From: a virus | IMG/VR virus record: IMGVR_UViG_3300025174_000046 | Location: 1-42,869 of that record | Reading direction: 5' to 3' (one strand) | Length of the DNA: 42,869 bases | Shown here: in pieces, positions 6,415 to 36,860 of the stretch | Numbering within the stretch: the first letter of the stretch is position 1 | Layout of the letters: every line of letters starts with the position of its first letter | Translations under genes and position numbers: made by a program | Notes under the pieces: model-generated | The model's input: only the letters and a program-made list of their open reading frames with translations | What the model was told of the DNA's origin: nothing | Database searches by the model: none

Positions 6415-6637
6415 CTTCTTGCTCCTTCAACTCAAGGCGACGAAACAGGCGGTTCTCCCCGCTGTCGATCTCGTATAGAGCGCTGATGCCTATGCCCCAG
6501 TTCTTCCCGAAGCATCGGACGATGTGCCCCTGAGTACCGACAGGCGTGCCGAGATACGGACTCTTCACGACAACCACGGGCATGTCAACTGCAAGATCGC
6601 TCTGTTCTCTCGCCTGCTCGCTTCTTTGCTTGTTCAT
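6407..6637 (-). CDS. Hypothetical SH3-like small protein, 76 aa
   Basis: The ATG at 6637 overlaps the stop of the PP-loop gene (ATGA), so translation is coupled. The product has a charged N-terminal helix (MNKQRSEQAREQ) and then short strands (MPVVVVKSPYLGTPVGTQGHIVRCFGKNWGIGISALYEI) that read like a small SH3/KOW-type barrel with a conserved 'G-T-x-G-x-I-V' turn. No catalytic residue is evident. It may help the neighbouring enzyme or be an accessory tail protein. I do not recognise it further. Confidence 0.6.
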   Translation of the reverse strand: MNKQRSEQAREQSDLAVDMPVVVVKSPYLGTPVGTQGHIVRCFGKNWGIGISALYEIDSGENRLFRRLELKEQEDE

Positions 6638-7434
6638 GTTAGGCAGAACCCCCCTTCGCAGCCTTCAAGTTCATCGAAGTCCATCTGCGATTGCACGGCC
6701 AGATCAAGAGGAGCCAATGAAGGATGCAACCAGACCTTATCTTTCTTCAGCAAAGCAACTCGTTTATGATTGATATGCTCCTCTATCTGTACCGCGCGCG
6801 CAAACAGATCCGGCCTCTGTTTATCCAGCCGACGCCACTCCATCGGGCTATGAAACGGGCAGAAGTAGCAGGCAGAACGTGGCGCTGGCGGTAGGCTCGC
6901 GTCCCGAATGACGGCGAGGCAGTCGGCCCGGCTCATGTCCAGATCAATCAATGGATATTCGAGTTGCTTCCAGAAGCGATTGCGTTCGATCCATTGCCTA
7001 CCATTCCGCCGTGCCCGCTGGATCTCGTCTGTACTGATGCCAAGACCGACCGTTACAATATCGGCATCCCGTCCCCCATTGGTGGCGATCCATCTGTCTA
7101 TTTGGCGGATCTTGTAATCGACGGTGCAGGCCCTATTGCCGGGCGCTCCATTGCTCATCCGTGCCGGAATAGGAACTGAACGATTGGTACTCATCAAGCT
7201 CTGGTATAGGGTCCTGCCGCCCTTGGCGATCTCGACAAACTGGATGCCATGCGTGATCGCGTAGGGCTGACTGACATTCCGGACGTAGGCCAGCACATCT
7301 GGATGCTCGCTATCGTCGCCTGTATTGGCGAAGACGTGGACGCGGTAAGGCAGATCCCCACGGGCTGATAACACCAGTACTGCGGTGCTCTGCACACCGC
7401 CACCCGAACTGAATAAGCGCATCTCCTTGCTCAT
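6634..7434 (-). CDS. PP-loop ATPase of the PAPS reductase-like family, 266 aa
   Basis: SSGGGVQST at residues 8-16 is the pyrophosphatase PP-loop of N-type ATP pyrophosphatases related to PAPS reductase. VFANTGDDSEHPDVLAYV is the usual second motif, and ACYFCPFHSPMEW near residue 190 is a CxxC that could hold a metal or a cluster. Members activate a substrate by adenylation or use PAPS. Phage members are usually annotated as PAPS reductase-like, with unknown substrates such as nucleic-acid sulfuration or nucleotide change. It overlaps the tape measure stop (ATGA). An enzyme is out of place inside a tail module, so it looks like an inserted accessory gene. A link with the sulfotransferase fusion at 16847-17980 is only a possibility. 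Confidence 0.8.
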   Translation of the reverse strand: MSKEMRLFSSGGGVQSTAVLVLSARGDLPYRVHVFANTGDDSEHPDVLAYVRNVSQPYAITHGIQFVEIAKGGRTLYQSLMSTNRSVPIPARMSNGAPGNRACTVDYKIRQIDRWIATNGGRDADIVTVGLGISTDEIQRARRNGRQWIERNRFWKQLEYPLIDLDMSRADCLAVIRDASLPPAPRSACYFCPFHSPMEWRRLDKQRPDLFARAVQIEEHINHKRVALLKKDKVWLHPSLAPLDLAVQSQMDFDELEGCEGGFCLT

Positions 7435-9617
7435 ATCTTCTCCGCCATGGCCTGCATCATCTGGAAGTCGCCTATGATCGGCTCGGATCGGGAGGCGCTG
7501 TTCACCGTTAGGTTTAAATTGGTAGTGGAGCTCGGCCCGGCGCCGACGACCTGAGCAGCCGCAGTCTGGAGCGCAATGGCCGGCATGGGCGTCGATCCAC
7601 GGATGCCAGCCGCCAGCCCCTCCATCATCTGCTGGCCGATGCCCATCATGAGCTTAGAGGGTGAGCCGAGACCGAGGAAGTCTGCTACGGCATCAATGGC
7701 CCCTTCCAGCCCACCGACGATGGAGTCGGAGACGCCCTGAACCCAGGTGGCGATGCCATCGGAAATGCCTTGCAGTGCAGCTGAGATGATGATGGACAGG
7801 TTGTCCAAAATGCCAGACCACATATCCAGGAAGTCATCCAGCTTCACGCCGACAACGTTGGTCGCGGCTTCCAAGAGACCCTCAAGGCCATTGGTGATGG
7901 CCTGGACCGCGCCCTCAAAGTCTCCAGTCAGAAGCGCCGCTAGTCCGGCGATGATGCCGGTAACCAATGTGGCGAAGCCTTCAAAGGTCGCCAGCACGGT
8001 TCGGACCAGGAAGCCGACGACATCGATCACCTCATCGCCGTGCTCCCGCCAGAAAGTAGCAAGAGCCTGTAGGAAGATGCCGATGTTCTCCACGATGCGC
8101 TGGACGGTCGGCCCCAGCGTCTCGCTGAAGAAGGAGGCGAACCGCTGGCCCTCCTCCACGAGTGATGGAACATGAAGCATGAAAGCATCGACGAGTTCCT
8201 TGACGCCATCAATGATCGGCTGCAGGAACCCACCAGCTTCGCCGAGTGCCGGCGCGAACTCGCCACTGAATAGATCGGATACAGTCTGGATGGCGCGGGG
8301 CAGGTTGTCCTGAAGCCATGTGACCAGCGTGTCGAAGATCGGCTTTCCAGTTGTTTCCCAGAAATTGGTAAGCGTGTCCCGCATCCCCATGAAGTTCGTG
8401 TCCCAGCCCGCTTTGAGCAGTCCGATCAAGGTAAGCAGCAGCCCGATGGGCGAGGTCAAGCGGCCCAGAATGCCGGCGATCTGGGCGATGGTTGCTACGA
8501 CTGCGGCGGCAGCCAGCGCGGCTCCGATCCCTTCGATGGCTCCAATGATGGCATCCTTGTTTTCGGTGATGAAGTCGCGTACCTGGGTGAAGACACCTAC
8601 CACCTTATCGCCAAACTCCCGGATGCGATCTTGGAGGTCCTGCGGAAGCATGGAGAGCAGGGCTTCCCGGAACTCTATGGACAGCGGCCCGGCATCCACC
8701 AGCGCCTGGGCAAGCCGCAAGATAAAGCCCACTGCCCGGTCAATGGCCGGCCCGATCCGGCTGCGGAACAGCTCGACCATCAGCGGCAGGACTTGCTCAA
8801 CCAGCGGCGTCAGACCTTGCAGGAGCTTGCCCAAAGACGGGATCAGTACGAAGCCGATGCTCTCGGCCTGCTCCCGGATGTGGCCGATCAGGATCGTAAA
8901 CTGTCCAGAGAGTGTCTTTGAAGCCGCGACCGCTCTTCCACCAATTGAGGTTGATAGCGCATCCATCAGAAAGGTCTGAGCTTCGGCAATGCGGCCAGTT
9001 TCAACCATTCCATCGATGAGCTTCTGCTGCTCATCGGTGAGGATGATGCCAGCTAGGCGAAGAGCCCGCAAACCCTCGCCCGGTAGTTCCAGAGCGCGGC
9101 CAAGCTGGCCGGCCGCCGAGGCCGCGTCTGTGCCCAGTGCAGCGGCAAGATCAAGCGTCAGGCGCAGCGCCGGTTCAAAGGCATCCCCACGGATATTCTT
9201 GAAGCGTAGCAGGACTGCTTCGGCGGCGATCACGGCATCATCGCTGCCGCCCGCCAGATCTCGCAAGGACATCGCCAAGTCCAGCGCCCGCTGCTCAGTA
9301 ATACCGGCTACTCCGCCGGTCGCGGCCAGTACGGACTGGAGCGCGGCGACATTCTTCTCCGCGTCAACCGCCTCCCGGATGCCGATGGCCGCAACCGCGG
9401 CTAGTGCTCCGGTCGCAGCGGTTGCCGCGCCAACCAGCGCGGTCCCCAGGATGCCGCCGACCTTGATGACTGTGTTGCCCAGGCCGACGAATTGTCTGCC
9501 GAGGCTATCGCCAGCGGAACCTACCCGGCCGATGGCCTTGTCCATAGACCCAAGGTCCCGAACGAAGTTGGGGACACCGGCGGCCAATGCCTGGATGCCG
9601 AGCGGTTCCAGTGCCAC
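7431..9617 (-). CDS. Tail tape measure protein, 728 aa
   Basis: This is the longest uniform helical protein of the tail block. It begins at a GTG that shares one base with the previous stop and has GGGG/GGA upstream. Early residues form a helical segment (SLGRQFVGLGNTVIKVGGIL) followed by a hydrophobic Ala/Gly stretch (VGAATAATGALAAVAAIG). The middle has further hydrophobic helices (IGAALAAAAVVATIAQIAGI, LLLTLIGLL). The C-terminus has the LGLGSPSKLMMGIGQQMMEGLAAGI motif found at the end of many tape measure proteins. At the usual 0.15 nm per residue the tail would be roughly 110 nm. It follows the tail chaperone pair as expected. Confidence 0.92.
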   Translation of the reverse strand: MALEPLGIQALAAGVPNFVRDLGSMDKAIGRVGSAGDSLGRQFVGLGNTVIKVGGILGTALVGAATAATGALAAVAAIGIREAVDAEKNVAALQSVLAATGGVAGITEQRALDLAMSLRDLAGGSDDAVIAAEAVLLRFKNIRGDAFEPALRLTLDLAAALGTDAASAAGQLGRALELPGEGLRALRLAGIILTDEQQKLIDGMVETGRIAEAQTFLMDALSTSIGGRAVAASKTLSGQFTILIGHIREQAESIGFVLIPSLGKLLQGLTPLVEQVLPLMVELFRSRIGPAIDRAVGFILRLAQALVDAGPLSIEFREALLSMLPQDLQDRIREFGDKVVGVFTQVRDFITENKDAIIGAIEGIGAALAAAAVVATIAQIAGILGRLTSPIGLLLTLIGLLKAGWDTNFMGMRDTLTNFWETTGKPIFDTLVTWLQDNLPRAIQTVSDLFSGEFAPALGEAGGFLQPIIDGVKELVDAFMLHVPSLVEEGQRFASFFSETLGPTVQRIVENIGIFLQALATFWREHGDEVIDVVGFLVRTVLATFEGFATLVTGIIAGLAALLTGDFEGAVQAITNGLEGLLEAATNVVGVKLDDFLDMWSGILDNLSIIISAALQGISDGIATWVQGVSDSIVGGLEGAIDAVADFLGLGSPSKLMMGIGQQMMEGLAAGIRGSTPMPAIALQTAAAQVVGAGPSSTTNLNLTVNSASRSEPIIGDFQMMQAMAEKI

Positions 9618-11955: not shown

Positions 11956-12244
11956 GTTGAACCTCCTGGTCGTCCGTGCGATACAGTTGGACAAGATGCC
12001 GCTTCAGAGCGCGACAGGCGATGGCTTGCAGGTTTGCGTTCGTTCGCTGTAGGTCCTCCCAGTTCAGAATGCCAGCCTCCGCCAGAGCGTTGTGGATGTC
12101 CCGGCGCAGTCCTTCCCAGTCAAGCCGCTCCAGATCGGGCGGGTCCTGCGGGATGCCGGCCTCGGCCATCAAGTCGGGATCCTCGTCCCGCACCAGCGAG
12201 GCATGCCGATAACCGTTGCGGTCGGTCCATTCTACTCGTCTCAC
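11924..12244 (-). CDS. Head-tail connector region small protein, 106 aa
   Basis: The ATG at 12244 overlaps the connector stop (ATGA), and its 3' end carries the ribosome site of the major tail gene. The N-terminus VEWTDRNGYRHASLVRDEDPDLMAEAGIPQDPPDLERLDW is followed by two helices (GLRRDIHNALAEAGILNWEDL, NANLQAIACRALKRHLVQLY). Similar proteins that begin VEWTDRNG are found between connector and tail genes in several siphophages, from recall. A tail-terminator or stopper role is possible but not shown. Confidence 0.6.
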   Translation of the reverse strand: MRRVEWTDRNGYRHASLVRDEDPDLMAEAGIPQDPPDLERLDWEGLRRDIHNALAEAGILNWEDLQRTNANLQAIACRALKRHLVQLYRTDDQEVQHGNIHSPADG

Positions 12245-13521
12245 ACCACTGCCACCGATGCCCGGGCCCCGACGAACCGGCGCACCCTCCGCCAGGCCTT
12301 GATCTCACCGACCAGCGTCCCGAAGGGGTTGGCTCCGTCTCTCGGATCTAGTGTATAGGCTGGTTCATCCGCTCCTGTGCGGGAGGTGTCCCAGCGGAGA
12401 TCGTTGACCAGCTTCTCTACGGTTCCACAGGAGCAGAACGGCCGGGAGAGCCGGGCAGTCGCCAGCCAGGCGATGGCCTGCGCCCAGTACAGGCTGAGAG
12501 GCTCGCAGGCACGGCCGGACAGGAACTTCCGGTCCAGGTCACCGGCGTAGTAATTCACCTTCACCAGATCCGGCTCCCGGCAGTCCACCCAGTCGGCGGC
12601 AGCCCATTGGCCTGCAACAGCGTCATAGTTGGCTGGCTGTGGGACCAATAAACCACCATGCACGTCGCGGACGTGGGCGCATCCATCCTGGACTTGCAAC
12701 GTGCAGGATGGACAACCGTTGCCTCCGCAAGAGGCACAGATACCGCTCACGGTTGAGACAGGATCCGGCTCCCAGAAGAAGCGGGCGCTCGGCTGGGTGA
12801 AGTCAACGAACTCCCTGTAGACATCAACCAGCGTTTCATAGATCGCGGCATCGGTCAGGTCCAGCGCGTGCGCCCCGTCGCTGGTCGGGAAGGCTTCCCA
12901 CAGTTCAGGATGAATGGCCTGCCAGATCCAGAATGTGGCGGTGAACACGCCGCCTGAGATGGACTTGGTACGCAGTGGCCGTATCTCCCACTCGGGATCG
13001 CCATCGTATCCCTCAAAGTAGACCTTGACTTCGCAGGCGTCGGTGAGCGCGGTGGCGATGGAGACAGTAACGGTCTCGTCGAAGCCATCCCCATCCGCGT
13101 CACTGCGGATGATGGCGGGTGTCCCGACAAAAGTTGTCCCTCGCTGGCCGGCGGAGATGAACTTGGCATAGTCGGCTCGGATGGAGCGCAACTGCCCGCG
13201 GTTGGTCAGGCCTTGGGTGATGAGTTCGGGCCGGTAGTGCCGCGGATAGGGATGGATCTCATTCGTGATGAACATGGGCGCCGGCCAGAAGCCGAGCACG
13301 CGGGCGATTTCCTCTTCGGCGGTGGCGATGGCCTGGGCCAGTTCTTCGCGGCTGACGCGGTCGCTGCTCTGCCACTGGAATTGATGCCAGATGGCGTCGC
13401 ACTGGCCACCAGCCGGGAAGATCGATGCTCCGGCCGCACCCGAAAAGTGAGGAGGGGCAATACCCAGGATGTAACTGTAGGCGTCCAAACTCAGGAGCGT
13501 GTAAGTGTCAGCGCGCGCCAT
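12241..13521 (-). CDS. Head-tail adaptor-like virion protein, 426 aa
   Basis: The start overlaps the DUF1360 gene by 14 bases and has GGGTGG upstream. The N-terminus LLSLDAYSYILGIAPPHF, then SREELAQAIATAEEEIARVLGFWPAP and a following helix-strand region, matches the helical bundle seen in phage head-tail adaptors, which start with 'L-D-x-Y-A-x-I-L-G-I'. The middle is beta-rich (EVKVYFEGYDGD). A DnaJ-like zinc motif, CASCGGNGCPSC, is at about residue 270, and CSCG comes later, so the protein may bind zinc. At 426 aa it is much longer than simple adaptors (100-200 aa). The place between capsid and tail genes supports a connector role. Confidence 0.65.
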   Translation of the reverse strand: MARADTYTLLSLDAYSYILGIAPPHFSGAAGASIFPAGGQCDAIWHQFQWQSSDRVSREELAQAIATAEEEIARVLGFWPAPMFITNEIHPYPRHYRPELITQGLTNRGQLRSIRADYAKFISAGQRGTTFVGTPAIIRSDADGDGFDETVTVSIATALTDACEVKVYFEGYDGDPEWEIRPLRTKSISGGVFTATFWIWQAIHPELWEAFPTSDGAHALDLTDAAIYETLVDVYREFVDFTQPSARFFWEPDPVSTVSGICASCGGNGCPSCTLQVQDGCAHVRDVHGGLLVPQPANYDAVAGQWAAADWVDCREPDLVKVNYYAGDLDRKFLSGRACEPLSLYWAQAIAWLATARLSRPFCSCGTVEKLVNDLRWDTSRTGADEPAYTLDPRDGANPFGTLVGEIKAWRRVRRFVGARASVAVV

Positions 13522-13819
13522 TAGCCACCCTGTCTACTATGACCGCCATCGCGGATAAGGCGAAGGGCAACGAGATCAGGATCGCAACGTTCGGCCAGAA
13601 CCAATAGGCTAACGTCAGGGTCGCCGCTAGGTAGGGTGAGACGCACCAGGTACACATCATCAATTTGGAGAGTACGGTCGTTGAGTAGGCATTCGAATGC
13701 TCGTCGTACCGCACGCCCGCTAGGTGCCTTAGCTTCGGGAAGATATCCCACGGCCCATCCTCGTTCACCAGCAGGTTCGAGATCCGCCATGTCGCCAAGC
13801 CCAGGATCAGGTAGTCCAT
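13508..13819 (-). CDS. DUF1360 family membrane protein, 103 aa
   Basis: The sequence YLILGLATWRISNLLVNEDGPWDIFPKLRHL and then LMMCTWCVSPYLAATLTLAYWF has the order of the DUF1360 family: a first hydrophobic helix ending in WR, a short acidic loop with GP-DIF, then a CxWC motif and one or two further membrane helices. A final hydrophobic stretch follows (VAILISLPFALSAMAVIV). The protein is predicted to cross the membrane two or three times. Family function is unknown. It sits between the glycosyltransferase fusion and the connector gene, so it may anchor an enzyme complex or act in lysis, but neither is supported directly. Its ribosome site is weak. Confidence 0.75.
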   Translation of the reverse strand: MDYLILGLATWRISNLLVNEDGPWDIFPKLRHLAGVRYDEHSNAYSTTVLSKLMMCTWCVSPYLAATLTLAYWFWPNVAILISLPFALSAMAVIVDRVANGAR

Positions 13820-13835
13820 GGTAAATGGACCGGCG

Positions 13836-16800
13836 CTATCCGGCCGCCGCAGCCATCGCCTGCAGCTCTCTTACCGACTGGATGATGATCTCGGCCTTGG
13901 ACTTCGCCGCGCCCAGCTCGATCAACCCGTCTGGGCCGAGCGCCAGGATGTCGTCGGCCGTCTGGATGCCTTTCGACTTCAGCTTCTTGGCGAGGGTTTT
14001 GCTGACCCCAGGGAGCGCCTGCAGATCCAGGCCGGCCGCGGTCTCGGTTTCGGCTGCGCCCGGCTCCGGCGGCTCAAAGGAGGGCGGGGCTTCCTCCGGC
14101 AGTTCCGGCGCTGCACCCAGCACAGATGGCGCAGGCGGCACCGGCATGGGCATCGACGGCACGGACATCCGCACCTGCTCCACCGGCCGGAAGATGTGCG
14201 GCTGGGTTCGCAGGTCCAGCTGCTTGACCAGGAACTTCTCGCCGCTCTTGCGCTGGCCGTAGTCGGTGCGGGTGGCCGTCCCGATGACCCGGTGCCGGCC
14301 ACGGTTGGGGTGCGTGTAGAGGATCATAACCAGATCAGAGTCGCCCATCTTAGAACCTCCGTTGGATCGGGCAACGACAGAGAGCACGCCAGTGTTGGAT
14401 TTTTTCTTGCTCGCCGATCCCTGGCCGTTGCCTCCGCAGTTGCATGACACGATGTCGATGCTCCTATACTTGGCTCGTAGGTATTCTACAAGCCTTGTGT
14501 GTTCCTGTAAACCAAGTTGCCGGCGCTGTCCGGTGTGGAAACGGTAGACCACCAGCTCTTCCGGGACCCGGTAGTAGCACCGGCCGGCCATCGCCATCCG
14601 CCAGTGATAGTCTACATCCTCCCAGGTCTTCATGCCCTCGTCAAAGCCGCCGATCTGGTCATGCCAGGCCTTCGGGATAAGGCAGGTGACGAGCGACCAG
14701 TGATAGGGCTGACCATCCTCCGGTTGTCGCTGGGCCCGCTCCGGCTCGAAGTTGGCCGATCGATAGCCGATGATGGCCTGCTGGCTCTTCTGGTCCCAGG
14801 AGTAGAGCCGCTCTTGGAGGTTGGGGGCCAGTCTGCGCGGGTCGTCTACAGTGGCCTTGCCCACGTAGTCCGTAAAGATGATCTCCCCATGTTCCTCCCA
14901 GACCTGCATCATCCGTTCCAGCGCCTTCGGGTAGAGCCAGTCGTCGGCATCCAGGAAAACCAGGAAGGGAGCGCGGGCGATGGCAGCCCCGCGGTTCCTG
15001 GCCTCTCCGGCGCCGAGCTTCGGAGCATTCAGCAGCCGGACATAGGGATACGCGGCCATGTGTGGGTACGGTTCGGTGGAAGTCCAGACAACGATGACTT
15101 CCCACTTGCGGAAGGTCTGAGCCTCCAGGCTGTCCAGTGCATCGATGACGGTCTGCTCATGGCCTGGCCCGACCGGGATGACCACAGAGATGGCTGGCTC
15201 ATCGTACTGCCGTACCGGATGGGAAAAGCGGCGCGGGGTCGCAAGGCTGGCGAATGGGTGCTGCTTGTCCTCAACCCACGGATGCCAGCCGAGCCAGTCG
15301 GTCTCATGATAGTTAGGGTCGCCGCTGACCCGCCCGCTCTTCCAGGAGTAGACGAACAGTGGCCGGGCATCAGCCCTGACCGCGCCCCAGCCATAAGCTC
15401 CTGCCCGCAGCCAGAGCTCGGCGTCCTCTGAGCCCGCACCACCTGGAGCATACCGCTGCCGGTAGCCTCCAAGCCGGGCCCACATCTCACGCCGGAACAC
15501 GCAGCAGGTCGGGATCTGGTTCTGCCGCTGAAGCTGCTGGTCGTAGTTGAAGTCACCGGGCCATGGCGAGATACCTTGACTGTTGTCCGGCTTGATCCAA
15601 TGCAGACCAGTGTAGGCCACGCCGAGCTTGCGGTCAGCCTCCAATGGTTTGATGCAGGCCGAGAGGAAAGTGGGCTCAATGGCATCATCGGCATCGAGGC
15701 AGGCAATGTATCTGGAATTGACGCTGGCGATCCCCGCGTTGCGGGCATGGGCCACCCCACGGTTGTCCTGCCGGATATAGTGGACCCTTGGATCGACTGC
15801 GGCGAACTGCCGGACCACCCGCTCGGTCATTCCTTGATCCTGCGAGCCGTCGTCAACAACGACCACGGCCTCCAGCTGTTTGTAGTCCTGCGCCAGAGCT
15901 GACTGGATCGCTCTGGCCACCTTGTCCGCATAGTTGTATGTCGGGATGATGACGGCCGCCGTCGCCGGTTCCGGCTGCATGGCCTTTTCATAGACGCTGG
16001 CGACAAGCTGACAGGCCGCCTCCCAGGTCCAGCGCCGGGCAGACTCGCGGGCATTCTCGCTGAGCTGCTTGCGGTGTTCCAGACACCAGGCCAACCCCTG
16101 CGCCAGGTCGTCGATATTCCCGACCTGGGCAAGATAGCCGGTGACACCGTGCTGGACCAGATCCAGGTTCCCGCCGTGGGCGAAACCCAGGACCGGGACA
16201 CCGCAAGCCATGGCTTCGAGAACACCAAGGCAAAAAGTTTCCTTGATGACCGATAGATATACTGCCGCGCCAGCGACGATCCGTTTCATCGCTGAGTGCG
16301 GCTTGAGACCGATCACCCTCACATTCGGCGGGGCAAGATCAGGCGCAAAGGTGGTCAGAAAAGGAAGCTCGGGGAACCGCGCCGCAAGAGCGCCCATGGG
16401 AGTGGGGTCGACAATATCGGCGGAGCGATTCTTGTTGTACAAGACATAGCCTCCGCCCGCCGGTTCGACATCCTGCCAGTCCTCCCAGTCAATTCCGTGG
16501 GGGATGACGTGGGGCGTGAACCGCATGTCGCGCTGAAAGATCTCGGCCACCCACTTTGAGGGCACTGTGACTTCACTAGCAGTCCGGGCCGTTTCGATCA
16601 CGCTTTGGTTCGCTTTCCATTCCCAAGAAGCGGCGCTGTACTCACCCGTGAAGTAGATGCCATGGCTGTGACAAATGTTGGCATCAGGAGCAGTCCCGGC
16701 GTGAACTGCCTTCAGGTCATAGGCATCTGTGGGGCCAACAAGCTCAACGCCGAAAGCCGGAAGATGTCTGAAGTAGCCCTCTACCACTCGCCGGATACCA

Positions 16801-16850
16801 CTCTCGCCCTTTCCGAGCTGTGTGAGGTGAGGCACCATAAAGACCTTCAT
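13836..16850 (-). CDS. Triple glycosyltransferase fused to a virion-like/HhH tail, 1004 aa
   Basis: The ATG at 16850 overlaps the previous stop (ATGA), with GGGAAG upstream; a GTG at 16865 is less likely. Residues 1-295 are a GT-B (GT4-like) domain with the E-x7-E pair at E204/E212 and GVPVLGFAHGGNLDLV. Residues 298-545 are a GT-A (GT2) domain (VVDDGS at 331, DADD at 386, ED at 475). Residues 554-800 are a second GT-A domain (DADD at 634, WEDVDYHW at 743). Residues 803-895 differ (CNCGG, then GDSDLVMILYTHPNRGRHRVIG, like a small phage structural domain). After a Pro-rich linker, 944-995 is a helix-hairpin-helix (LPGVSKTLAKKLKSKGI). Three transfer domains suggest assembly of a short sugar chain; the tail may hold the enzyme at the capsid. 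Confidence 0.85.
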   Translation of the reverse strand: MKVFMVPHLTQLGKGESGIRRVVEGYFRHLPAFGVELVGPTDAYDLKAVHAGTAPDANICHSHGIYFTGEYSAASWEWKANQSVIETARTASEVTVPSKWVAEIFQRDMRFTPHVIPHGIDWEDWQDVEPAGGGYVLYNKNRSADIVDPTPMGALAARFPELPFLTTFAPDLAPPNVRVIGLKPHSAMKRIVAGAAVYLSVIKETFCLGVLEAMACGVPVLGFAHGGNLDLVQHGVTGYLAQVGNIDDLAQGLAWCLEHRKQLSENARESARRWTWEAACQLVASVYEKAMQPEPATAAVIIPTYNYADKVARAIQSALAQDYKQLEAVVVVDDGSQDQGMTERVVRQFAAVDPRVHYIRQDNRGVAHARNAGIASVNSRYIACLDADDAIEPTFLSACIKPLEADRKLGVAYTGLHWIKPDNSQGISPWPGDFNYDQQLQRQNQIPTCCVFRREMWARLGGYRQRYAPGGAGSEDAELWLRAGAYGWGAVRADARPLFVYSWKSGRVSGDPNYHETDWLGWHPWVEDKQHPFASLATPRRFSHPVRQYDEPAISVVIPVGPGHEQTVIDALDSLEAQTFRKWEVIVVWTSTEPYPHMAAYPYVRLLNAPKLGAGEARNRGAAIARAPFLVFLDADDWLYPKALERMMQVWEEHGEIIFTDYVGKATVDDPRRLAPNLQERLYSWDQKSQQAIIGYRSANFEPERAQRQPEDGQPYHWSLVTCLIPKAWHDQIGGFDEGMKTWEDVDYHWRMAMAGRCYYRVPEELVVYRFHTGQRRQLGLQEHTRLVEYLRAKYRSIDIVSCNCGGNGQGSASKKKSNTGVLSVVARSNGGSKMGDSDLVMILYTHPNRGRHRVIGTATRTDYGQRKSGEKFLVKQLDLRTQPHIFRPVEQVRMSVPSMPMPVPPAPSVLGAAPELPEEAPPSFEPPEPGAAETETAAGLDLQALPGVSKTLAKKLKSKGIQTADDILALGPDGLIELGAAKSKAEIIIQSVRELQAMAAAAG

Positions 16851-17980
16851 GGCAGTTCTTCCCACCAGCCCTCGTCCGCGTAGCCCTCAGCCCTCAGATA
16901 CGCGCCGAAGACCTCATCGAACTGCTGGGCTTGCCGCCGGGTCAGTTCCCGTTTCCAGCTTCCGACCTTGCCCTGCCACATGGCACCCTTGCGCTCGGGG
17001 AAACGCTGCAGCGTCGTGTCGAAACTGCTCCATGCAACCGCATCAGCGATAGTTCGGGAACGAGATGGGGAGATCTGGAGATCTCCAAGCGCCGCCGATA
17101 ATGTCACTTCAGGGCCGTGGGACAAGTCCTCATAGTTGACCGTGGACGCGCCATCCCAAGAGGCCTCAATGGTCAGATAGGGCATACCGTCCGCACCCTG
17201 TAGCCTAGCGAATGCCCTGTCAAATGGAAGGCCGCGGTAGTGCATGATCGAGATCAGAACATCTCGAGGATCGCGGCGAATGTGCAGAACGAGATCGTTG
17301 GGTTCGGGTGTGAACTCATCCCGTCGCTGGTGGCTCTTGCGGACCCTGAACTGGTCGCCGACAGCCTGCCTGAATAGGGTAATGGCCCAGGTGTTGCCTG
17401 AGCGTGGGTAGCCAGTGATGTGCAGCGTTCTCTCCGGCACGCGGAAAGCTCCCAGCCCATCAATATGCAGGATGACCTCATAGCCACGCATCTCCTGGTC
17501 AACGACCTGTCGGACCTCCGGCCAGTGGCCATCCGACCGATAGTCATGGAATGCGATGATGGAACCGGGGGCCATGTGGTCGATCCAGCCGTAGATGTCG
17601 CGGAAGACGCTTTGCTTTGAGTGGTCCGCATCCACGAACAGCAGGTGGATGTCGCCGCCCAGCCAGTTCTGACCGGCATGGGCGCTGTCGTCGTGGATCT
17701 GCTTGTGACGCGGGTCGCCCCAGAAGCCGGCTGATCGAAATACCGTCTCCTCCCCAACGAGGCAGCCAAGCGGGCTGGCATCCTTTTGCTTGTCCACGGT
17801 AGTCACGCGCAGCTTGTTGGGAGACTCCATGAGGGCCAGACCGGATGTTCCCGCACCAGCTCCTAGGTTGATGACCTGCGAGCTTTCGGGCAGGCTGGCC
17901 GCCAGTTCCTTCAGTGCCTTCAGCTCCGGCACGTGCAGATAGCCGAGCCAGGCCTGGACGGTTTCCGATGTGTGTTTCAT
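16847..17980 (-). CDS. Methyltransferase-sulfotransferase fusion, 377 aa
   Basis: Residues 1-180 are a class I SAM methyltransferase domain: INLGAGAGTSGLAL (37-50) is the SAM loop, VDADHSK is at 116-122 and FHDYRSDG at 144-151, as in the small O-methyltransferases made in sugar and antibiotic pathways. Residues 186-377 are a PAPS-dependent sulfotransferase: YPRSGNTW (191-198) is the 5'-phosphosulfate loop, KSH (215-217) matches the catalytic K-[ST]-H, RDPRDVLIS is at 236-244, and RKGAMWQGKVGSWK at 330-343 matches RKGxxGxWK. All key motifs appear intact. It lies between the DNA methyltransferase and the glycosyltransferase fusion, with ATGA overlap to the latter. Methylation and sulfation of a glycan is the simplest reading. 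Confidence 0.85.
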   Translation of the reverse strand: MKHTSETVQAWLGYLHVPELKALKELAASLPESSQVINLGAGAGTSGLALMESPNKLRVTTVDKQKDASPLGCLVGEETVFRSAGFWGDPRHKQIHDDSAHAGQNWLGGDIHLLFVDADHSKQSVFRDIYGWIDHMAPGSIIAFHDYRSDGHWPEVRQVVDQEMRGYEVILHIDGLGAFRVPERTLHITGYPRSGNTWAITLFRQAVGDQFRVRKSHQRRDEFTPEPNDLVLHIRRDPRDVLISIMHYRGLPFDRAFARLQGADGMPYLTIEASWDGASTVNYEDLSHGPEVTLSAALGDLQISPSRSRTIADAVAWSSFDTTLQRFPERKGAMWQGKVGSWKRELTRRQAQQFDEVFGAYLRAEGYADEGWWEELP

Positions 17981-17983
17981 CGC

Positions 17984-19204
17984 CTATGCATACTCCAAGA
18001 TGCGCCGCCCAAGCCATTCAACGACCGGGACGCAGACAGCGTTTCCGAGGACGCGATAGCGGGCCGAGTCCGAGAGTTGTGAGGTCCAACCATCTGGCAG
18101 GCCCTGTAGGCGCTCACATTCGGTCGGGGTGAGGCGGCGGACGCCCGATGTTCCTGGCAGAACATGCCCCGCGTCTACGCCCTGATTCGAGTGGAAGTTG
18201 CCCGCATCGTGGCTCCTCGGCCCGGCATTCGGTGCTATCGGGCCGACCACCAAGTTCTCATCATCCTCTCCACCGCGTCCCGGCATATTGGAATTGGGGT
18301 GCTGGCGGGAGCGAAGTGGGGCAGCGATGACTAGGTTCTCAGCTATCGGATTGCTATTTCCGTTGTGTGCCTCTGCTCCCGCGACGGTCCCGGCGACAAC
18401 GAAAGTATCCTGGTTGTGCCTGCCCGATCCATGTTTGCTGCCGCCCTGCCCGGCAGAGACCGCATAGGATGGATCGGGATAGGCGACAAGGTTCGGATCG
18501 TCCTCAGTCCTCCGACCGCTGCCATACGCGCCGCCGCCGACCGGACCAAAGATCAAGGCTGCTCCCTTGTTTGCTCCGGGATCGTCTCCCCCTCCGACGC
18601 GGCTGAGAGAGCGCGATAGAGTGCCATCGGCAATTGACGGCCCCTCTTCGCCGCCCTCCGCAATATCCCCGCGCAGGCTTTCGGGCTCAAATAATACTTG
18701 CGCGGCACGGTAGTCTCCAAGATGGCCGACAATGAAGAGGCGACGGCGCCGCTGGGGGACTCCGAAGTGCTGAGCGTCCAGTATCCGCCAGGCAGGGCCA
18801 TACCCGAGTTCGACCAGCCCTCGAAGGATGACGGCAAAGTCCCGCCCTCCGTTCGAGGATAGCAGGCCGGGGACGTTCTCAACGACAGCCCAAGCCGGGC
18901 GATGCTCCGCAAGAATGCGATGGAACTCGAACCAAAGCCCCGACCGCTCTCCAGCAAGGCCCGCACGTCGGCCGGCCACTGAGAGATCTTGACATGGAAA
19001 GCCCCCGCAAATAAGGTCGGCTGCTTCCAGTTCCCGTCCATCAATTCCGGTGATGTCATGGTATCTCCTGACTTCGGGCCAGTGTGACCCGAGGACATCA
19101 TTGCAGTTACCATCAATTTCTACCTGCCAGACGGTCTCCATCCCGACCCGTTCGAAGGCCAGATCGAAGCCGCCCACTCCCGAGAATAGACTGCCTACCT
19201 TCAT
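17984..19204 (-). CDS. C5 cytosine DNA methyltransferase, 406 aa
   Basis: All ordered motifs are visible: I (KVGSLFSGVGGFDLAFE), IV (GGFPCQDLS, catalytic C71), VI (ENVPGLL, 109-115), VIII (QRRRRLFIVG), a target-recognition region of about 150 residues rich in Gly/Asn/Ser (for example GGSKHGSGRHNQDTFVV), then IX (RRLTPTECERLQGLPDGWT) and X (GNAVCVPVVEWLGRR). The ATG at 19204 is in ATGA overlap with the preceding glycosyltransferase stop, so the two are co-translated; a GTG at 19219 is the less likely start. It methylates cytosine at C5 in a specific site. No paired restriction enzyme is visible, so self-protection against host restriction is likely. It is unusual inside the capsid/tail block. 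Confidence 0.93.
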   Translation of the reverse strand: MKVGSLFSGVGGFDLAFERVGMETVWQVEIDGNCNDVLGSHWPEVRRYHDITGIDGRELEAADLICGGFPCQDLSVAGRRAGLAGERSGLWFEFHRILAEHRPAWAVVENVPGLLSSNGGRDFAVILRGLVELGYGPAWRILDAQHFGVPQRRRRLFIVGHLGDYRAAQVLFEPESLRGDIAEGGEEGPSIADGTLSRSLSRVGGGDDPGANKGAALIFGPVGGGAYGSGRRTEDDPNLVAYPDPSYAVSAGQGGSKHGSGRHNQDTFVVAGTVAGAEAHNGNSNPIAENLVIAAPLRSRQHPNSNMPGRGGEDDENLVVGPIAPNAGPRSHDAGNFHSNQGVDAGHVLPGTSGVRRLTPTECERLQGLPDGWTSQLSDSARYRVLGNAVCVPVVEWLGRRILEYA

Positions 19205-19911
19205 CCGCCCCTCAACCACCCGAGCCGCCGAAGCTCATCCACATGCTCCGCCGGCACCCGGTCCAGGTTCTGCAGTTCGAAGCCCTTGCCGCTCTTGAAG
19301 ACATTGGCGTAGCGTACACACGGTTGCCGAGAACCGATCACGCGCAGGTCTGATCTCCCATGCAGCGAAGGTCCCAAGTGTAATTCCACCTCCCACGGCG
19401 ACATGCCCGGCCGCAGGACCGACTTCATCAGATCTCGGTTCCAGATGCCGGCCTGCAACGACATCTGGTATTCGCTGTCGCCGGGAGTCTCCACCAGATC
19501 GTAGTGCCCCCAGGCCCCGATGTCCTTGGCCCTCCCGTTGTACTGCCGGTCATCCGTCAGGTCAACCCTCAAAACGTCGCCATGCGATCGGGCATAGTCT
19601 GACAAGGTTTCGATGCCGCGGTGGTCCACGGTGCGGGTCAGCCAGTAGTCCTCCAGCATCAGGATGAAGTGCGACTGCGGCAGCTGATCCAGGTAGGCCA
19701 GCAAGGCATCCGACCACTGGTTGGCAGGTAAGGGTTTACCGCCGCCAACCTTGAACACCGTGAAGCTGGGGGGCAACGCGAACTCCAGCCGGGCGTCCGT
19801 AATGACAGTCACCGGCTGGAGCTGCGACCAGTAGCGCTCAAAAAGGTACCCGAACGGCCTCAGCGCCCACTGGTATCTGGAGGACGTGACGACGCAGACT
19901 GGAGTCGGCAC
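19201..19911 (-). CDS. Glycosyltransferase-like protein, 236 aa
   Basis: The GTG at 19911 has GGGGG upstream. The sequence begins MPTPVCVVTSSRYQWALRPFGYLFERYW, continues with VTVITDARLE and SHFILMLEDYWLTRTVD (an acidic L-x-x-ED motif in the place of a GT-A DXD), and ends with QAGIWNRDLMKSVLRPGMSPWEVEL. This layout occurs in small glycosyltransferase-like proteins of phages and glycan clusters. Two strands feed the ED motif, and the QAGIWNRD region would be the acceptor loop. It is the first gene after the capsid gene and a strong hairpin, and it overlaps the C5 methyltransferase. The sugar and acceptor are unknown. Confidence 0.6.
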   Translation of the reverse strand: MPTPVCVVTSSRYQWALRPFGYLFERYWSQLQPVTVITDARLEFALPPSFTVFKVGGGKPLPANQWSDALLAYLDQLPQSHFILMLEDYWLTRTVDHRGIETLSDYARSHGDVLRVDLTDDRQYNGRAKDIGAWGHYDLVETPGDSEYQMSLQAGIWNRDLMKSVLRPGMSPWEVELHLGPSLHGRSDLRVIGSRQPCVRYANVFKSGKGFELQNLDRVPAEHVDELRRLGWLRGG

Positions 19912-19946
19912 GCCCCCATGCTATTCGGTTTTGACTGGTTAGGCAA

Positions 19947-19977
19947 GGAGGAGAGGCGGACATTCCGCCTCCCCTCC
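19947..19977 (-). terminator. Strong hairpin downstream of the capsid gene
   Basis: On the minus strand, GGGAGGGGAGGCGGA pairs across a three-base loop (ATG) with TCCGCCTCTCCTCC, giving a 14-bp stem with a single A:C mismatch (arms 19947-19960 and 19964-19977). It starts 11 bp after the capsid stop codon and precedes the glycosyltransferase gene. No U-tract follows, so it is more likely a partial terminator or an mRNA-stability element than a full stop. It could lower expression of the modification enzymes relative to capsid protein, which is inference. Confidence 0.6.
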
Positions 19978-19987
19978 CTGATTTAGC

Positions 19988-21421
19988 TTAGCTCAGCCAT
20001 ACCGCGTGCTGCGGCTGCGGGTTGCCCCTCAGTGAGACTCCGCCATCCTTGAAGTACGGATCATCCGGGAACGCGGATCTTATGTGCTGTAGCGGCTCGT
20101 AGAGCACGTCGTCGATGCGCCCCGCCAGCTGCGGGGTGCGGAGCACGATCCGCATCTCGGTCTTGGCGGCCAGCGTGTAGCACCACTTGTTGAACTCCGA
20201 AACCCAGGAGTACATACCGCGGTCGGTCCAGAAGTTCTCGGTGTTCCGCAGTAGTGCTGAGTCTCGCGCTCCGGCCCGGTAGTCCACGTGCTCAACGTAG
20301 GTCACCGGATAGGCACCGGTGATCGTCAGCGGGACCATGTAGATGGACGAGGCGTACTGGCCGGGCAGTAGGTTGCCGTTGTTGATATTGGACTGCTCGG
20401 CGATGCCGTCGTCCGTGATCACCCGGTAGCGGTTGCCATTGACGTCGATGTACTTCTGGTTCCGCATGGCATCCCGCTCGGCCACGTTCTCGCGCCCGTC
20501 CAGGAAGACCGAGCTGGCCGCCCCGATGACCGAGGAAGCGCACTTGTTCGTGTTGTACTGGCATGGCCAGCAGGACGACAGCTCGAACCAGAGTTCCGGC
20601 CGCATGACCCAGGCCCAGGTTGCAGGCATCAGGCCCATGCGCTCGGCGTTGTGGCGCAGATAGAACTCCAGCATGGACATGTACTCCACGATGCTGGGGC
20701 TTGTGCCACAGACCGGGTTCAGGTTGAAGTCCTTCACGTCCGAGTCCAGCGCCGGACAGGCCTGGTCGGTGTCGGCGTCCACCTGGCCGGTTGCGATCTG
20801 TAGATCCAGTCCGGGGAACTCCCTGTAGCCGCCGCCGGCGGTGTTGTTCGCCGGGGTGCCCTGCCAGGAGGTGCGGGTCAGCACCCGTTCCAGCTGCACA
20901 CCGACCCCAACCATTTCGGCCATGGTGACGATGTTGATCGCCTGTGCTTCTGACAGACCCGCCGGGTCGATGTCGCCGAGACCCAAGAGCCTCCCACGCA
21001 GGGTGAGCTCGGTGGTGACGCCACGGTGCAGCTGCGTCATCACCTTGTCCCACTCGATGGTCTGGGTCTGCCGACTGACCCGCCCGAAGGCCGCGGTCAG
21101 GTTGCAGCCCTTCATGTAGGCCGAGGGCTCGTCATCGCACGGATTCACCGCTTCGGCACCAGTCACATCGGTGAACCCGGTGATGGTGGCGAACCGCGGC
21201 TGCTCGAACACGCTGGGGAACCTCGGCAGCTCGGTGAGGATCCCCATGGGCCGGACGTGCGCGGTGATGACATCCGGCTCGATCCCCGGTGTGGAGAAGA
21301 TGCCGCCCTGTCCGAACAGCAGCGTTGCGGTGTTGGTCGCGGCCTGCTTCTGGCCAGAGACTTTCTTGCCGGTGACCTCCAGCAGCGCCTCGGCCAGCTG
21401 TTCCAGAACTTGTGTATCCAT
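19988..21421 (-). CDS. Major capsid protein (HK97-fold, inferred), 477 aa
   Basis: The protein follows the protease/scaffold gene by 26 bp and is the expected size. It opens with a helical N-arm (LEQLAEALLEVTGKKVSGQ), then FGQGGIFSTPGIEPDVITAHVRPMG. A long central region with YMSMLEFYLRHNAERMGLMPATWAWVMRPELWFEL is typical of the helices of the HK97 P-domain, and the late VYVLQ-like segment (TEMRIVLRTPQLAGRIDDV) is a matching C-terminal strand. HK97-fold capsid proteins are identified mainly by order and structure, so motif support here is moderate. It is about 150 residues longer than minimal capsid proteins. It is expected to form the icosahedral shell. Confidence 0.78.
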   Translation of the reverse strand: MDTQVLEQLAEALLEVTGKKVSGQKQAATNTATLLFGQGGIFSTPGIEPDVITAHVRPMGILTELPRFPSVFEQPRFATITGFTDVTGAEAVNPCDDEPSAYMKGCNLTAAFGRVSRQTQTIEWDKVMTQLHRGVTTELTLRGRLLGLGDIDPAGLSEAQAINIVTMAEMVGVGVQLERVLTRTSWQGTPANNTAGGGYREFPGLDLQIATGQVDADTDQACPALDSDVKDFNLNPVCGTSPSIVEYMSMLEFYLRHNAERMGLMPATWAWVMRPELWFELSSCWPCQYNTNKCASSVIGAASSVFLDGRENVAERDAMRNQKYIDVNGNRYRVITDDGIAEQSNINNGNLLPGQYASSIYMVPLTITGAYPVTYVEHVDYRAGARDSALLRNTENFWTDRGMYSWVSEFNKWCYTLAAKTEMRIVLRTPQLAGRIDDVLYEPLQHIRSAFPDDPYFKDGGVSLRGNPQPQHAVWLS

Positions 21422-21447: not shown

Positions 21448-23940
21448 CTACTGCGGCTGGCGCTGCCCGGCCGCCTTGAGCGCGTCGAGCAGTGGGATTC
21501 CGAACATCCGACCCTCGGGCAGCTGACTCGGGTCGGTCTCCTTCGGGCCGTCCTTGGCGAGTTCCTTCCGCCCATCGACCCGGGTCTCTTCCTTGCCGAT
21601 CACCGACTTGGCGGCCAATTCGATCAGGCTGATGCGCGGGGTCTCCTCCAGCTTCTCTTTGACCTCGCGCCTGACCTCCTGGCCCATGGACTGGCTGAGC
21701 GCCTTGACCTCGGCGGCCAGGTTGGCGATGCCGGCGCCGAGGACCTGCACGACGCCTTCCATCTCGGCCCGGGTGATCGGCTCATCCGCGGCCTTGGTCG
21801 CGGCGGGCTCCGCCGCAGGCTGCATGGCCGCCAGAACGCCCTCCAGCCCGGTCTTGACTTCGCCCTCGGTCTTGCTGGCGATGGCCTGCAAGGGTGCGAC
21901 GAACTCGCCTAGGCCTGAAGGGATGTCGGCGGCGGTGGGCTCGGTCTCCTCCGCTGGCTCTTCTTTCTTGCCCTTGCTCACGGCCTTGGCGATCTTCCCG
22001 GCCAGCTTGCGAAGTTCCTTGGCCATGTCTTCATCCTCCATCTCGGCCGCAATGGCCTCCAGCTGCGAGGGCAGGTCGCCTGCCTTCTTGGCCTTGTAGG
22101 CCACACCGGCGCGCTCGAGTTCCTCAGTGCGCTTCTCGCCGGTCTCAGTGACCAGATCGACGATCTTGTCTCCGCCGATCTCCCGCAGCGCTTCGATCTG
22201 CTTTTTGCTGAGCATCTGGATCACCTCCAACTCTGGGTTGTACGGATTGGCTGCCACCGAGCCCGGCAGTACGCTCGTCTCTTCCTTCTCGAACCAACGA
22301 TAGACTCCTCCTTTGCGGTCATCTGCCCGATATCTGAAGCCGTGCGAGGTGCCCCAGCCTTCGGGAGCGATGACCGGGTGGCCATCGGGGAACTCCATCA
22401 AGAATGCCTTGAAGGTCTGCCCCACCACGGTATCGTCAAACGGCCCGGCCTCTGCCAGAAACCGTCCGCTGACTCCCTGCCATCGGATCGTTCCGAACTT
22501 CGATCCGGGAATATGCCAGAACTCGAATGCGCCTTTGTCCTTCTGATCTTCATGCCGACCGACGTACTCTTCGATGGCCTTGGTCTGGAAGATCTCGCCG
22601 TCCCGATCCTCGAAGGCATTGGTAGTCCAGGTCAGCAGCCAGTCTTCGCCATCCTTCGTCCGGATGACTTTGAAACCCTTGGAGAGCTTCTGTGGCTTCC
22701 GGTCTTCGTATTCGGCCCAGCCCAGGATCTCGCCCAGGCCCTTGAACAGATCGTCCAGCTTGGTCTTGAGCTCGCGCAGAATGCTGATCTTGTCCGACCG
22801 CACCCGGCGTCCGGCCTTGGCCTCGGCCCGCATCTCTTTGACTTTGCGGAGCCACTCCTCGCGCTTCTCCACCTCAACCCAGTCTTCCTGGGCGGCGAAG
22901 GCGATCTCGTCGCCGATCCGCATGAATGGGACCTCGTAGTACTTGCCAGCCCACTCACAGATGACCGAGCTGCTGTAGGTGTCGACGATCCACGGTCGGG
23001 ATGTGTAGCCCACCGCGACCGCTGGCTGCTGCATGGGTTCCAGGGCTGCTTCGAAGGCCCGCCGCACCCCGATCTCCTGCTGCTCCCGGCTGATCTCGCC
23101 CTCCAGCGTGGACTTCTCCTGCACGTCATCCTTGAAAGGCTTGTCGTCCTGCTTGGTCTCTATGGGTTCTCCGGCAAACGCAATTGAATGGCGCTCGTCA
23201 CCCCAGGTCAGGACGACATCCTTGAAGACCACTGACACCGGATCCGGCTGATAGTCCGGCGTAGGAACATCCTTTGGTAGATAGGCCAGAGTGACGTGTG
23301 GCGTAAACCCATGTTCCTTGACGACCGGGACACCAGCTGCCTCCAGCATATCGACTACCCGCTGCCGGAAGGCCGGCAAGTCGGGACTGTCGAAACTCGC
23401 ATAGAAAGGACACTCATCGCCTTCTTCTGGGAGAAACCGTCCCATCCCGGAAACCTCTCCCTCGATCGGCGCTTGATCGGCGGCCAGTCGGGAAAGCATC
23501 TCAACGACCTGCTCCTTTGAGACCGGCAATTGACTCGCGTCCGATCCCAGGTAGGCCAGGGTGATATGGCGATGGTCGGCCGGTTCCGGCTTGCTTCCCC
23601 TCGGCAGACCGATAGGAACCGGAGGCACACCCGCTGGCAGGAAGAGGGCCACCATTGCGCCTTCCATGTTCGCTTTGAGGCCGACGGTCTTTTCCTCGCC
23701 AATCGCCTCTTCAAAGAGTTGGACGGTCACGTCATGCTCCTTGAGCCAGTCCCGAGCTTCCCGGGCTGTGAAGGCTTCTCGGTCAAAGCGATAGGACTGT
23801 GCAACCGCCGATCCATCTCCATCCTTCAGCCGTCCGACAATGAGATCAATGCCCTCGGTGATCGGTTTCCGGCGAAAGCTGCCTTCGATAAATGCGTCTG
23901 GCGACTTCACTCTTCCGGCATGCTCATTTGCGAAAGGCAC
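21448..23940 (-). CDS. 2H phosphoesterase + prohead protease + scaffold fusion, 830 aa
   Basis: A GTG start at 23940 follows GGGAGG. Residues 1-75 resemble the XkdF N-domain (SFRRKPITEGIDLIVGRLKDG). Residues 80-265 are a 2H phosphoesterase, shown by two H-x-T/S-L motifs, HITL (H125) and HVTL (H215), about 90 apart; the family cleaves cyclic or 2',5' phosphodiesters. Residues 290-360 are an insertion with WIVDTYSSSVICEWAGKYYEV. Residues 420-565 look like a capsid maturation protease (DRDGEIFQTKAIEEYV, H476 in FEFWHIPG, TSHGFRYR, S556 in SVLPGS). Residues 580-800 are charged helices typical of scaffold. The cluster order is protease/scaffold then capsid. The 2H domain is the odd part; it might remove host cyclic-nucleotide signals or simply be structural. 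Confidence 0.8.
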   Translation of the reverse strand: MPFANEHAGRVKSPDAFIEGSFRRKPITEGIDLIVGRLKDGDGSAVAQSYRFDREAFTAREARDWLKEHDVTVQLFEEAIGEEKTVGLKANMEGAMVALFLPAGVPPVPIGLPRGSKPEPADHRHITLAYLGSDASQLPVSKEQVVEMLSRLAADQAPIEGEVSGMGRFLPEEGDECPFYASFDSPDLPAFRQRVVDMLEAAGVPVVKEHGFTPHVTLAYLPKDVPTPDYQPDPVSVVFKDVVLTWGDERHSIAFAGEPIETKQDDKPFKDDVQEKSTLEGEISREQQEIGVRRAFEAALEPMQQPAVAVGYTSRPWIVDTYSSSVICEWAGKYYEVPFMRIGDEIAFAAQEDWVEVEKREEWLRKVKEMRAEAKAGRRVRSDKISILRELKTKLDDLFKGLGEILGWAEYEDRKPQKLSKGFKVIRTKDGEDWLLTWTTNAFEDRDGEIFQTKAIEEYVGRHEDQKDKGAFEFWHIPGSKFGTIRWQGVSGRFLAEAGPFDDTVVGQTFKAFLMEFPDGHPVIAPEGWGTSHGFRYRADDRKGGVYRWFEKEETSVLPGSVAANPYNPELEVIQMLSKKQIEALREIGGDKIVDLVTETGEKRTEELERAGVAYKAKKAGDLPSQLEAIAAEMEDEDMAKELRKLAGKIAKAVSKGKKEEPAEETEPTAADIPSGLGEFVAPLQAIASKTEGEVKTGLEGVLAAMQPAAEPAATKAADEPITRAEMEGVVQVLGAGIANLAAEVKALSQSMGQEVRREVKEKLEETPRISLIELAAKSVIGKEETRVDGRKELAKDGPKETDPSQLPEGRMFGIPLLDALKAAGQRQPQ

Positions 23941-34207: not shown

Positions 34208-34214
34208 CGCGTTT

Positions 34215-34316
34215 CTATGCCCCCGAACCGAGCGAAAGCGCCGCAACAACCATCGCCAATCCGGTCAGTATCGCCAGGGTAACCCAGATCGCCGCTTGCT
34301 GGAGCTTTGCTTTCAT
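34215..34316 (-). CDS. 33-aa single-pass membrane microprotein
   Basis: From ATG 34316 the frame encodes MKAKLQQAAIWVTLAILTGL followed by AMVVAALSLGSGA and ends at TAG 34215. Residues 9-29 are one strongly hydrophobic segment after a basic start, so it inserts into the membrane. AGGA lies 7 bases before this ATG; an upstream ATG at 34322 is too close to that site. It is the first coding frame of the leftward late block and the TAG is 7 bp before the methyltransferase ATG, so the two are likely expressed together. It may be a small regulatory, holin-like or immunity peptide. Function is not known. Confidence 0.55.
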   Translation of the reverse strand: MKAKLQQAAIWVTLAILTGLAMVVAALSLGSGA

Positions 34317-36663: not shown

Positions 36664-36860
36664 GCAGCGCCGGCCTGCACCAGAACAGCCGGATGCTGCG
36701 CCGGATCGCCCAGCCGGTTCAGCCAAAGAACCGTCGCAACTGGTGTCCGAGCTGCGAGAAGACCATAGAGCCGGCGGTGGATAGCCGTGGACTTTTTTGC
36801 CCGTGGTGCCACAAAGACGTTCCGAGTCCGATGGAACGAGGTGCCATAGGAGGCGAATGA
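36660..36860 (+). CDS. Zinc-ribbon protein, 66 aa
   Basis: RRNWCPSCEKTIEPAVDSRGLFCPWCHKDV has two CxxC pairs (CPSC and CPWC) 17 residues apart, the metal knuckles of a small zinc ribbon. The N-terminal 25 residues are basic. It overlaps the previous stop by 4 and the next start by 4. Zinc ribbons of this size often bind nucleic acid or act as partners of replication or recombination enzymes. Here it sits close to the recombination genes. Confidence 0.65.
   Translation: MSSAGLHQNSRMLRRIAQPVQPKNRRNWCPSCEKTIEPAVDSRGLFCPWCHKDVPSPMERGAIGGE

Follow-up and report, generated by a model that had tools for sequence, protein, structure and literature searches.

A capsid-adjacent gene cassette predicted to build a methylated and sulfated virion glycan in metagenomic phages

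We analysed the IMG/VR virus record IMGVR_UViG_3300025174_000046 (42,869 bases, hereafter the window) and, within it, a minus-strand cassette at positions 13836-19911 predicted to build a glycan on the virion. It lies between the gene of an HK97-fold major capsid protein, which is followed by a 3' hairpin, and the head genes. An interpretation made earlier from the letters alone (the sequence-only reading) had described four coupled genes. The four open reading frames (ORFs) are indeed open, at 19911-19201 (236 residues), 19219-17984 (411 residues), 17980-16847 (377 residues) and 16865-13836 (1009 residues), and the 411- and 1009-residue ORFs use the start codons ATG 19204 and ATG 16850, respectively. 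Both ATGA overlaps said to join the first and last pairs can be read in the sequence, one between the genes of a glycosyltransferase (GT) of GT-A fold and a C5 DNA methyltransferase (19204-19201), the other between those of a methyltransferase-sulfotransferase fusion and a three-domain GT (16850-16847).

The gene upstream of the cassette (19988..21421, minus strand) encodes a protein of 477 residues that has no match in Pfam or PHROG. The top PDB matches of its AlphaFold2 model (predicted local distance difference test, pLDDT, of 74.8) were, using Foldseek, the capsids of P23-45, SU10 and HK97 (E ~1e-8), and its matches in BFVD were major capsid proteins. On this model the protein is an HK97-fold major capsid protein, and the cassette was correctly called capsid-adjacent because the model fits such capsids. 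The hairpin after the capsid stop codon (19944..19980, minus strand), terminator-like or an attenuator, folds with -36.3 kcal/mol (z -4.4), an energy equalled in 0 of 200 shuffles. Hence, the cassette does follow a capsid gene and a significant hairpin. In about 30 relatives, the 80 bases 3' of the capsid stop contained a strong hairpin at nearly all loci, several with U-tracts resembling intrinsic terminators. Such a hairpin would probably hold the synthesis of the enzymes below that of the capsid.

The first gene of the cassette (19201..19911, minus strand) encodes the 236-residue protein, which was matched by no model of Pfam, PHROG or NCBIfam. Its AlphaFold2 model, built from 12 relatives, is of good quality (pLDDT 88.7, predicted template modelling score 0.88) and matched in the PDB the GT-A enzymes POMGNT1, B4GALNT1 and GnTI. 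The protein, previously described as GT-like, is thus a predicted GT-A-fold glycosyltransferase of an unnamed family (working label GT236), with a conserved LMLEDYW motif in the alignment of its 12 members.

The 377-residue protein had been read as a fusion of an S-adenosylmethionine (SAM) methyltransferase and a 3'-phosphoadenosine 5'-phosphosulfate (PAPS) sulfotransferase, and the profiles agree with this. The N-terminal domain (17438..17980, minus strand) matches Methyltransf_24 (PF13578, 7.3e-13), and the C-terminal domain (16847..17437, minus strand) matches Sulfotransfer_1 (PF00685, 1.7e-8) with 34.6 bits, above the curated cut-off of 22. A motif alignment of 18 sequences locates the 5'-phosphosulfate binding (5'-PSB) loop (YPRSGNTW), the catalytic histidine (RKSHQ), the 3'-phosphate binding (3'-PB) loop (RRDPRDVLIS) and the GKVGSWK motif. 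By its family score and motifs, the domain is a predicted PAPS sulfotransferase. It shares its motif set with PAPS sulfotransferases of Sulfotransfer_1 (for example SULT2B1, PDB 1q1z; 7v1o), but is shorter (about 195 residues) and is fused behind a methyltransferase. The earlier statement that the catalytic motifs are intact extends, with few exceptions, to the homologues, where loss of such residues had been feared. The 5'-PSB loop (PxSGxxW), the catalytic histidine and GxxGxW are kept in all 16 cassette sulfotransferases, and the 3'-PB loop (RDPRDxxxS) in 15 of the 16, that of locus L053 being substituted (RHPCD). The motifs are partly lost in a sulfotransferase encoded outside the cassette (L058).

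The last and largest gene (13836..16850, minus strand) encodes the three-domain GT. The sequence-only reading listed a GT-B and two GT-A domains, and all three are found by Pfam; a fourth, C-terminal domain had gone unlisted. The GT-B domain is GT4-like (15966..16850, minus strand; Glycos_transf_1, PF00534, 8.4e-18). The GT-A domains are GT2-like and are matched in two stretches by Glycos_transf_2 (PF00535, 6.6e-48 for the protein); they carry the motifs CLDADD (15192..15959, minus strand) and FLDADD (14421..15188, minus strand). LDADD was present in both domains in 17 of the 17 rows scanned. The C-terminal domain (13839..14348, minus strand; about residues 838-1009) has a proline-rich linker and a helix-hairpin-helix motif (HHH_5, 4.3e-4), and had no match in named phages. 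In most copies it opens with a conserved methionine, in the window the internal ATG 14348 (minus strand), preceded by GGAGGT at 14360-14355. A Shine-Dalgarno-like sequence stands 4-7 bases before this methionine in about seven of ten distinct loci, against some 5-21% for the other ATGs of the same genes. It is therefore possible, judging from these signals, that the domain is also translated as a separate product.

The best PDB sequence match of the three-domain GT, in two stretches (1e-25), is the chondroitin synthase of Escherichia coli K4 (PDB 2z86, 2z87). This enzyme has tandem GT-A domains like those of the phage protein; it is a capsule polymerase, and lacks the additional GT-B and C-terminal domains. 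The match allows, but does not show, a polymerase activity of the phage protein.

The remaining gene (17984..19204, minus strand) encodes a C5-cytosine DNA methyltransferase, as proposed earlier (PF00145, 7.6e-69, 233 bits, above the cut-off; dcm TIGR00675, 1.2e-65). Motifs I, IV, VI, VIII and IX are visible, with GGFPCQDLS, ENVP and QRRRRLF read directly. Its membership in the cassette is not supported, since a C5 methyltransferase was found in this place in one of 27 records only, that of the window. On this distribution we rejected it as an enzyme of the pathway; it is probably a separate insertion, unrelated to the surrounding genes, and would fit an inserted anti-restriction gene. A second DNA methyltransferase of the phage, fused with a ParB-like domain and of N6/N4 type, is encoded at 32882-34249 (minus strand).

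Relatives were gathered by three scans, with the capsid, the three-domain GT and the sulfotransferase alone, which gave overlapping sets of loci, and their architecture was mapped with custom profiles (the window record being labelled W). With the fusion as the only query, neither IMG/VR nor a set of 50,697 phage records yielded a relative, so that the capsid and domain profiles had to be used. The same order recurs in about 25 distinct virus records: a scaffold or protease region, the capsid gene, a variable stretch that we call the slot, the three-domain GT, usually DUF1360, and a conserved head-region gene. A search of related genomes for the gene order beside the capsid, suggested in the sequence-only reading, was thus successful, and the order is conserved down to a capsid identity of about 33% with the window. 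The three-domain GT was present in every virus record of at least 19 kb retrieved by capsid or GT; the five records that lack it are short, being fragments of 11.7 to 16.5 kb. The smallest form, seen in L024, L026 and near-copies, has no gene between the capsid and the adjoining GT.

The slot encodes in the relatives the 236-residue GT-A family, DegT/DnrJ/EryC1 aminotransferases, FkbM and Methyltransf_24 methyltransferases, NAD-dependent epimerase/dehydratases, HddA-like GHMP kinases, a GT8-like protein and GT10-like proteins. The latter label comes from one Pfam match in L003 (1.2e-7), extended by a custom profile, and we do not claim a fucosyltransferase. The nearest NCBIfam models of the DegT proteins were PseC, RfbH and LegC-like, none above its cut-off. 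In the 27 records, all eight sulfotransferase genes and all 15 DegT matches were located in the slot. The slots of G009 and G023 extend across the contig ends, and joining that of G009 presupposes a circular record.

Sulfotransferases are present in the cassettes of 15 records. The scan with the sulfotransferase profile alone found 15 loci, of which 13 were in cassettes, including seven new records, whereas L057 and L058 encode the enzyme in other contexts. This profile was built from members of the slot, and the scan therefore recruits relatives and does not count phage sulfotransferases at large. In a poorly supported tree, the sulfotransferase of the window is placed apart from those of the relatives nearest to it by capsid, and the capsid tree requires at least five gains or losses of the gene, with some truncated records scored as lacking it. 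The slot of L055 carries two sulfotransferase genes (6473-8699); in the product of one, the C-terminal half (about 260 residues) is unassigned. In L050, a papain-like match (Peptidase_C1, 7306-8004) adjoins the sulfotransferase, the slot here preceding the scaffold gene; papain has been mentioned for two genes of a glycogene cluster of Moumouvirus (PMC9614988).

The two domains of the fusion are separate genes in the relatives, with Methyltransf_24 as a stand-alone gene in L002, L005, L010, L027, L028 and L049. In G009 and L049, the genes of the methyltransferase, the sulfotransferase and the three-domain GT follow each other and the first two overlap, i.e., they have the order of the window without the fusion. 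A methyltransferase gene is the direct neighbour of the sulfotransferase gene, usually overlapping it, in about nine of the 15 sulfotransferase cassettes (the window, L003, L004, L010, L021, L027, L047 and L049, with L045 tentative). Hence, by gene order, the predicted coupling of methylation and sulfation is recurrent. An apparent sulfotransferase-methyltransferase fusion of reverse order in L045 (7229-8551) was matched in its C-terminal half through motif I only, and is not firm evidence.

Close relatives of the window capsid, of the fusion and of the whole three-domain GT were all lacking in the 50,697 phage records, where the three-domain GT had partial matches to its GT domains only. Genome contigs gave no match in a first scan with the capsid. 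A deeper one found four contigs of metagenome-assembled genomes (Altiarchaeales, Nitrosotalea, Anaerolineae and Ardenticatenales). These are L033, L034 (Nitrosotalea, 82 kb), L035 and L036, and their labels are Nitrosotalea, Altiarchaeales and Chloroflexota. L034/L039 carries the order of capsid, three-domain GT and head gene. Viral contigs are easily misbinned, and these labels are therefore too mixed to name a host.

We propose, with a probability of roughly two in three, that the locus is a late, capsid-linked module that builds a methylated and sulfated glycan on one of the virion proteins, the capsid being the likeliest. Aminotransferases, epimerases, sugar kinases, GTs, methyltransferases and sulfotransferases occupy the slot across about 25 records, a content that fits glycan synthesis. 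By its gene content, the slot is a predicted swappable glycan cassette. The GTs have intact motifs (the GT-B domain, two GT-A domains with LDADD, the 236-residue protein of GT-A fold) and are linked to structural genes, lying beside an HK97-fold capsid gene in the distinct records counted above. In the proposed pathway, the constant GT-B/GT-A/GT-A enzyme, usually with a second GT-A protein, would build a short glycan, with the nucleotide sugars supplied by the host. The acceptor would be a virion protein, most likely the neighbouring major capsid protein. The enzymes of the slot, between the capsid and the three-domain GT, would provide variable tailoring. In the window the fusion would then methylate and presumably sulfate the glycan with host SAM and PAPS; in relatives, aminotransferases, epimerases, GT10-like GTs and other methyltransferases would add to the tailoring. 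The sulfated and methylated virion glycan of the sequence-only reading is in this way supported as a capsid-linked glycan pathway with methyltransferase and sulfotransferase steps, and loses the C5 methyltransferase as a member. A bolder version, which we find improbable, is that tailed phages assemble a glycosaminoglycan-like methylated and sulfated polysaccharide on the capsid, polymerised by the tandem GT-A domains and patterned by exchangeable sulfotransferases and methyltransferases. If true, prokaryotic viruses would have their first example of a virus-encoded sulfated virion glycan, and the particle would gain a negatively charged, lineage-specific coat.

Several points weigh against the proposed module. 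Adjacency to the capsid gene does not prove that the capsid is the acceptor, all relatives are metagenomic, and the slot genes of L050 and L053 precede the scaffold gene instead of following the capsid. Sulfation has an in silico precedent as a modification of phage DNA (cited in PMC10829341). Finally, Tet_JBP matched none of the 27 records in a search in which no positive control gave a signal, and the window record may be incomplete. The last points concern an unlikely alternative, which we disfavour: the C5 methyltransferase would produce 5-methylcytosine, an unseen oxygenase would hydroxylate it, and the GTs, the methyltransferase and the sulfotransferase would build the glycan on the base. 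It agrees with the ATGA overlap that links the C5 methyltransferase to the cassette, with the systems of GT and sulfotransferase on phage bases proposed in silico (Iyer et al. 2013, as cited by PMC10829341) and with a weak match to TAGT, the TET-associated GT, in L005, although this match is below its cut-off. Yet the C5 methyltransferase is restricted to the slot of the window, the slot goes with the capsid gene, and the 27 records, one of which is seemingly complete (87.7 kb, with a 127-base terminal overlap), encode neither Tet_JBP, within the limit of that search, nor a thymidylate-synthase-type hydroxymethylase, a search that recovered nine of 14 control genomes. Neither a TET nor a hydroxymethylase route was found in this way, the former in a search whose controls stayed silent. 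The hydroxylation step of a hypermodified cytosine, which the sequence-only reading did not see either, is within this scope unseen in the relatives too. We infer that the substrate is a glycan and not DNA.

Slightly less likely still is a modification of the host surface, in which the enzymes would alter lipopolysaccharide, capsule or S-layer glycan of the infected host and thereby prevent superinfection or promote release. Surface-polysaccharide loci typically encode sulfotransferases, DegT aminotransferases and GTs, and the PHROG matches of the first GT-A domain are GtrB-like. However, no membrane genes for a flippase, a polymerase or an acetyltransferase were seen among the scanned slot genes, the three-domain GT has no typical membrane segment (hydrophobicity is highest in the conserved GT-B core), and the position is late and coupled to the capsid in nearly all lineages. 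We give the lowest weight to a glycan on tail or other virion proteins, with the capsid as a mere neighbour in late co-expression. The acceptor site cannot be read from sequence and in mycobacteriophages the tail tube is glycosylated as well as the capsid (Freeman et al. 2023, as cited in PMC12363180), but the slot and the three-domain GT remain beside the capsid gene across very divergent phages.

Other genes of the window complete the picture. A DUF1360 protein (13508..13819, minus strand; PF07098, 1.4e-8) marks the conserved 3' boundary of the module and has the same place in most relatives. It adjoins, in the relatives also, the conserved head-region protein (12241..13521, minus strand; working label ADAPT), for which we found no family in Pfam or PHROG. 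Before the capsid gene, an 830-residue protein (21448-23940, minus strand) contains a 2'-5' RNA ligase/LigT-like domain, and its PHROG matches are RNA ligase and head maturation protease. A PAPS-reductase-like protein (6634-7434, minus strand; PHROG_424, 1.1e-35) adjoins the tape-measure gene, and a weak PAPS_reduct match also occurs in the slot of L027 (2637-3425). Exonuclease, RecE-like and RecT-like recombination genes lie at 36797-41130 (plus strand).

Sulfotransferases have been noted in phage genomes, and their function has been called unclear (PMC10580990). Many of them now have a genomic setting in the slot, within a proposed capsid-linked glycan pathway whose core is constant and whose tailoring genes can be swapped. 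If the proposed module is real, the virion coats of phages in environmental samples would be charged and would vary in their chemistry, which would bear on adsorption, on the stability of the particles and on how they are recognised. The sequence-only reading held a sulfotransferase in such a cassette to be undescribed, and we found no description of a capsid-linked sulfotransferase cassette in the open-access phage literature, which is weak evidence of absence.

The closest parallels come from three groups of viruses. Mycobacteriophages encode GTs that glycosylate capsid and tail proteins and shield the virions from antibodies (Che8 gp110, Corndog gp38, Myrna; Freeman et al. 2023, as cited in PMC12363180), whereas the text available through PMC12363180 describes no sulfotransferase, DegT protein, epimerase or methyltransferase-sulfotransferase fusion in them. 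The Chlorovirus PBCV-1, like the phages described here, encodes multi-domain GTs and O-methyltransferases, which build a glycan on its major capsid protein (PMC7826918, PMC9614988), e.g., the three-GT protein A111/114R (PMC7826918) and the GT-GT-methyltransferase A064R (PMC9614988). It is, however, a eukaryotic algal virus for which PMC9614988 mentions no sulfotransferase, and the likeness claimed here is one of description. The glycogene clusters of Moumouvirus australiensis and Cotonvirus encode sulfate-metabolism enzymes, aminosugar genes and multidomain GTs, and sulfation of the fibril sugars has been suggested for them (PMC9614988). These are giant eukaryotic viruses, with different genes and with glycans on fibrils instead of an HK97 capsid. 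Glycosylation of phage virions is already known; a capsid-linked cassette predicted to make a sulfated glycan is, to our knowledge, new for phages.

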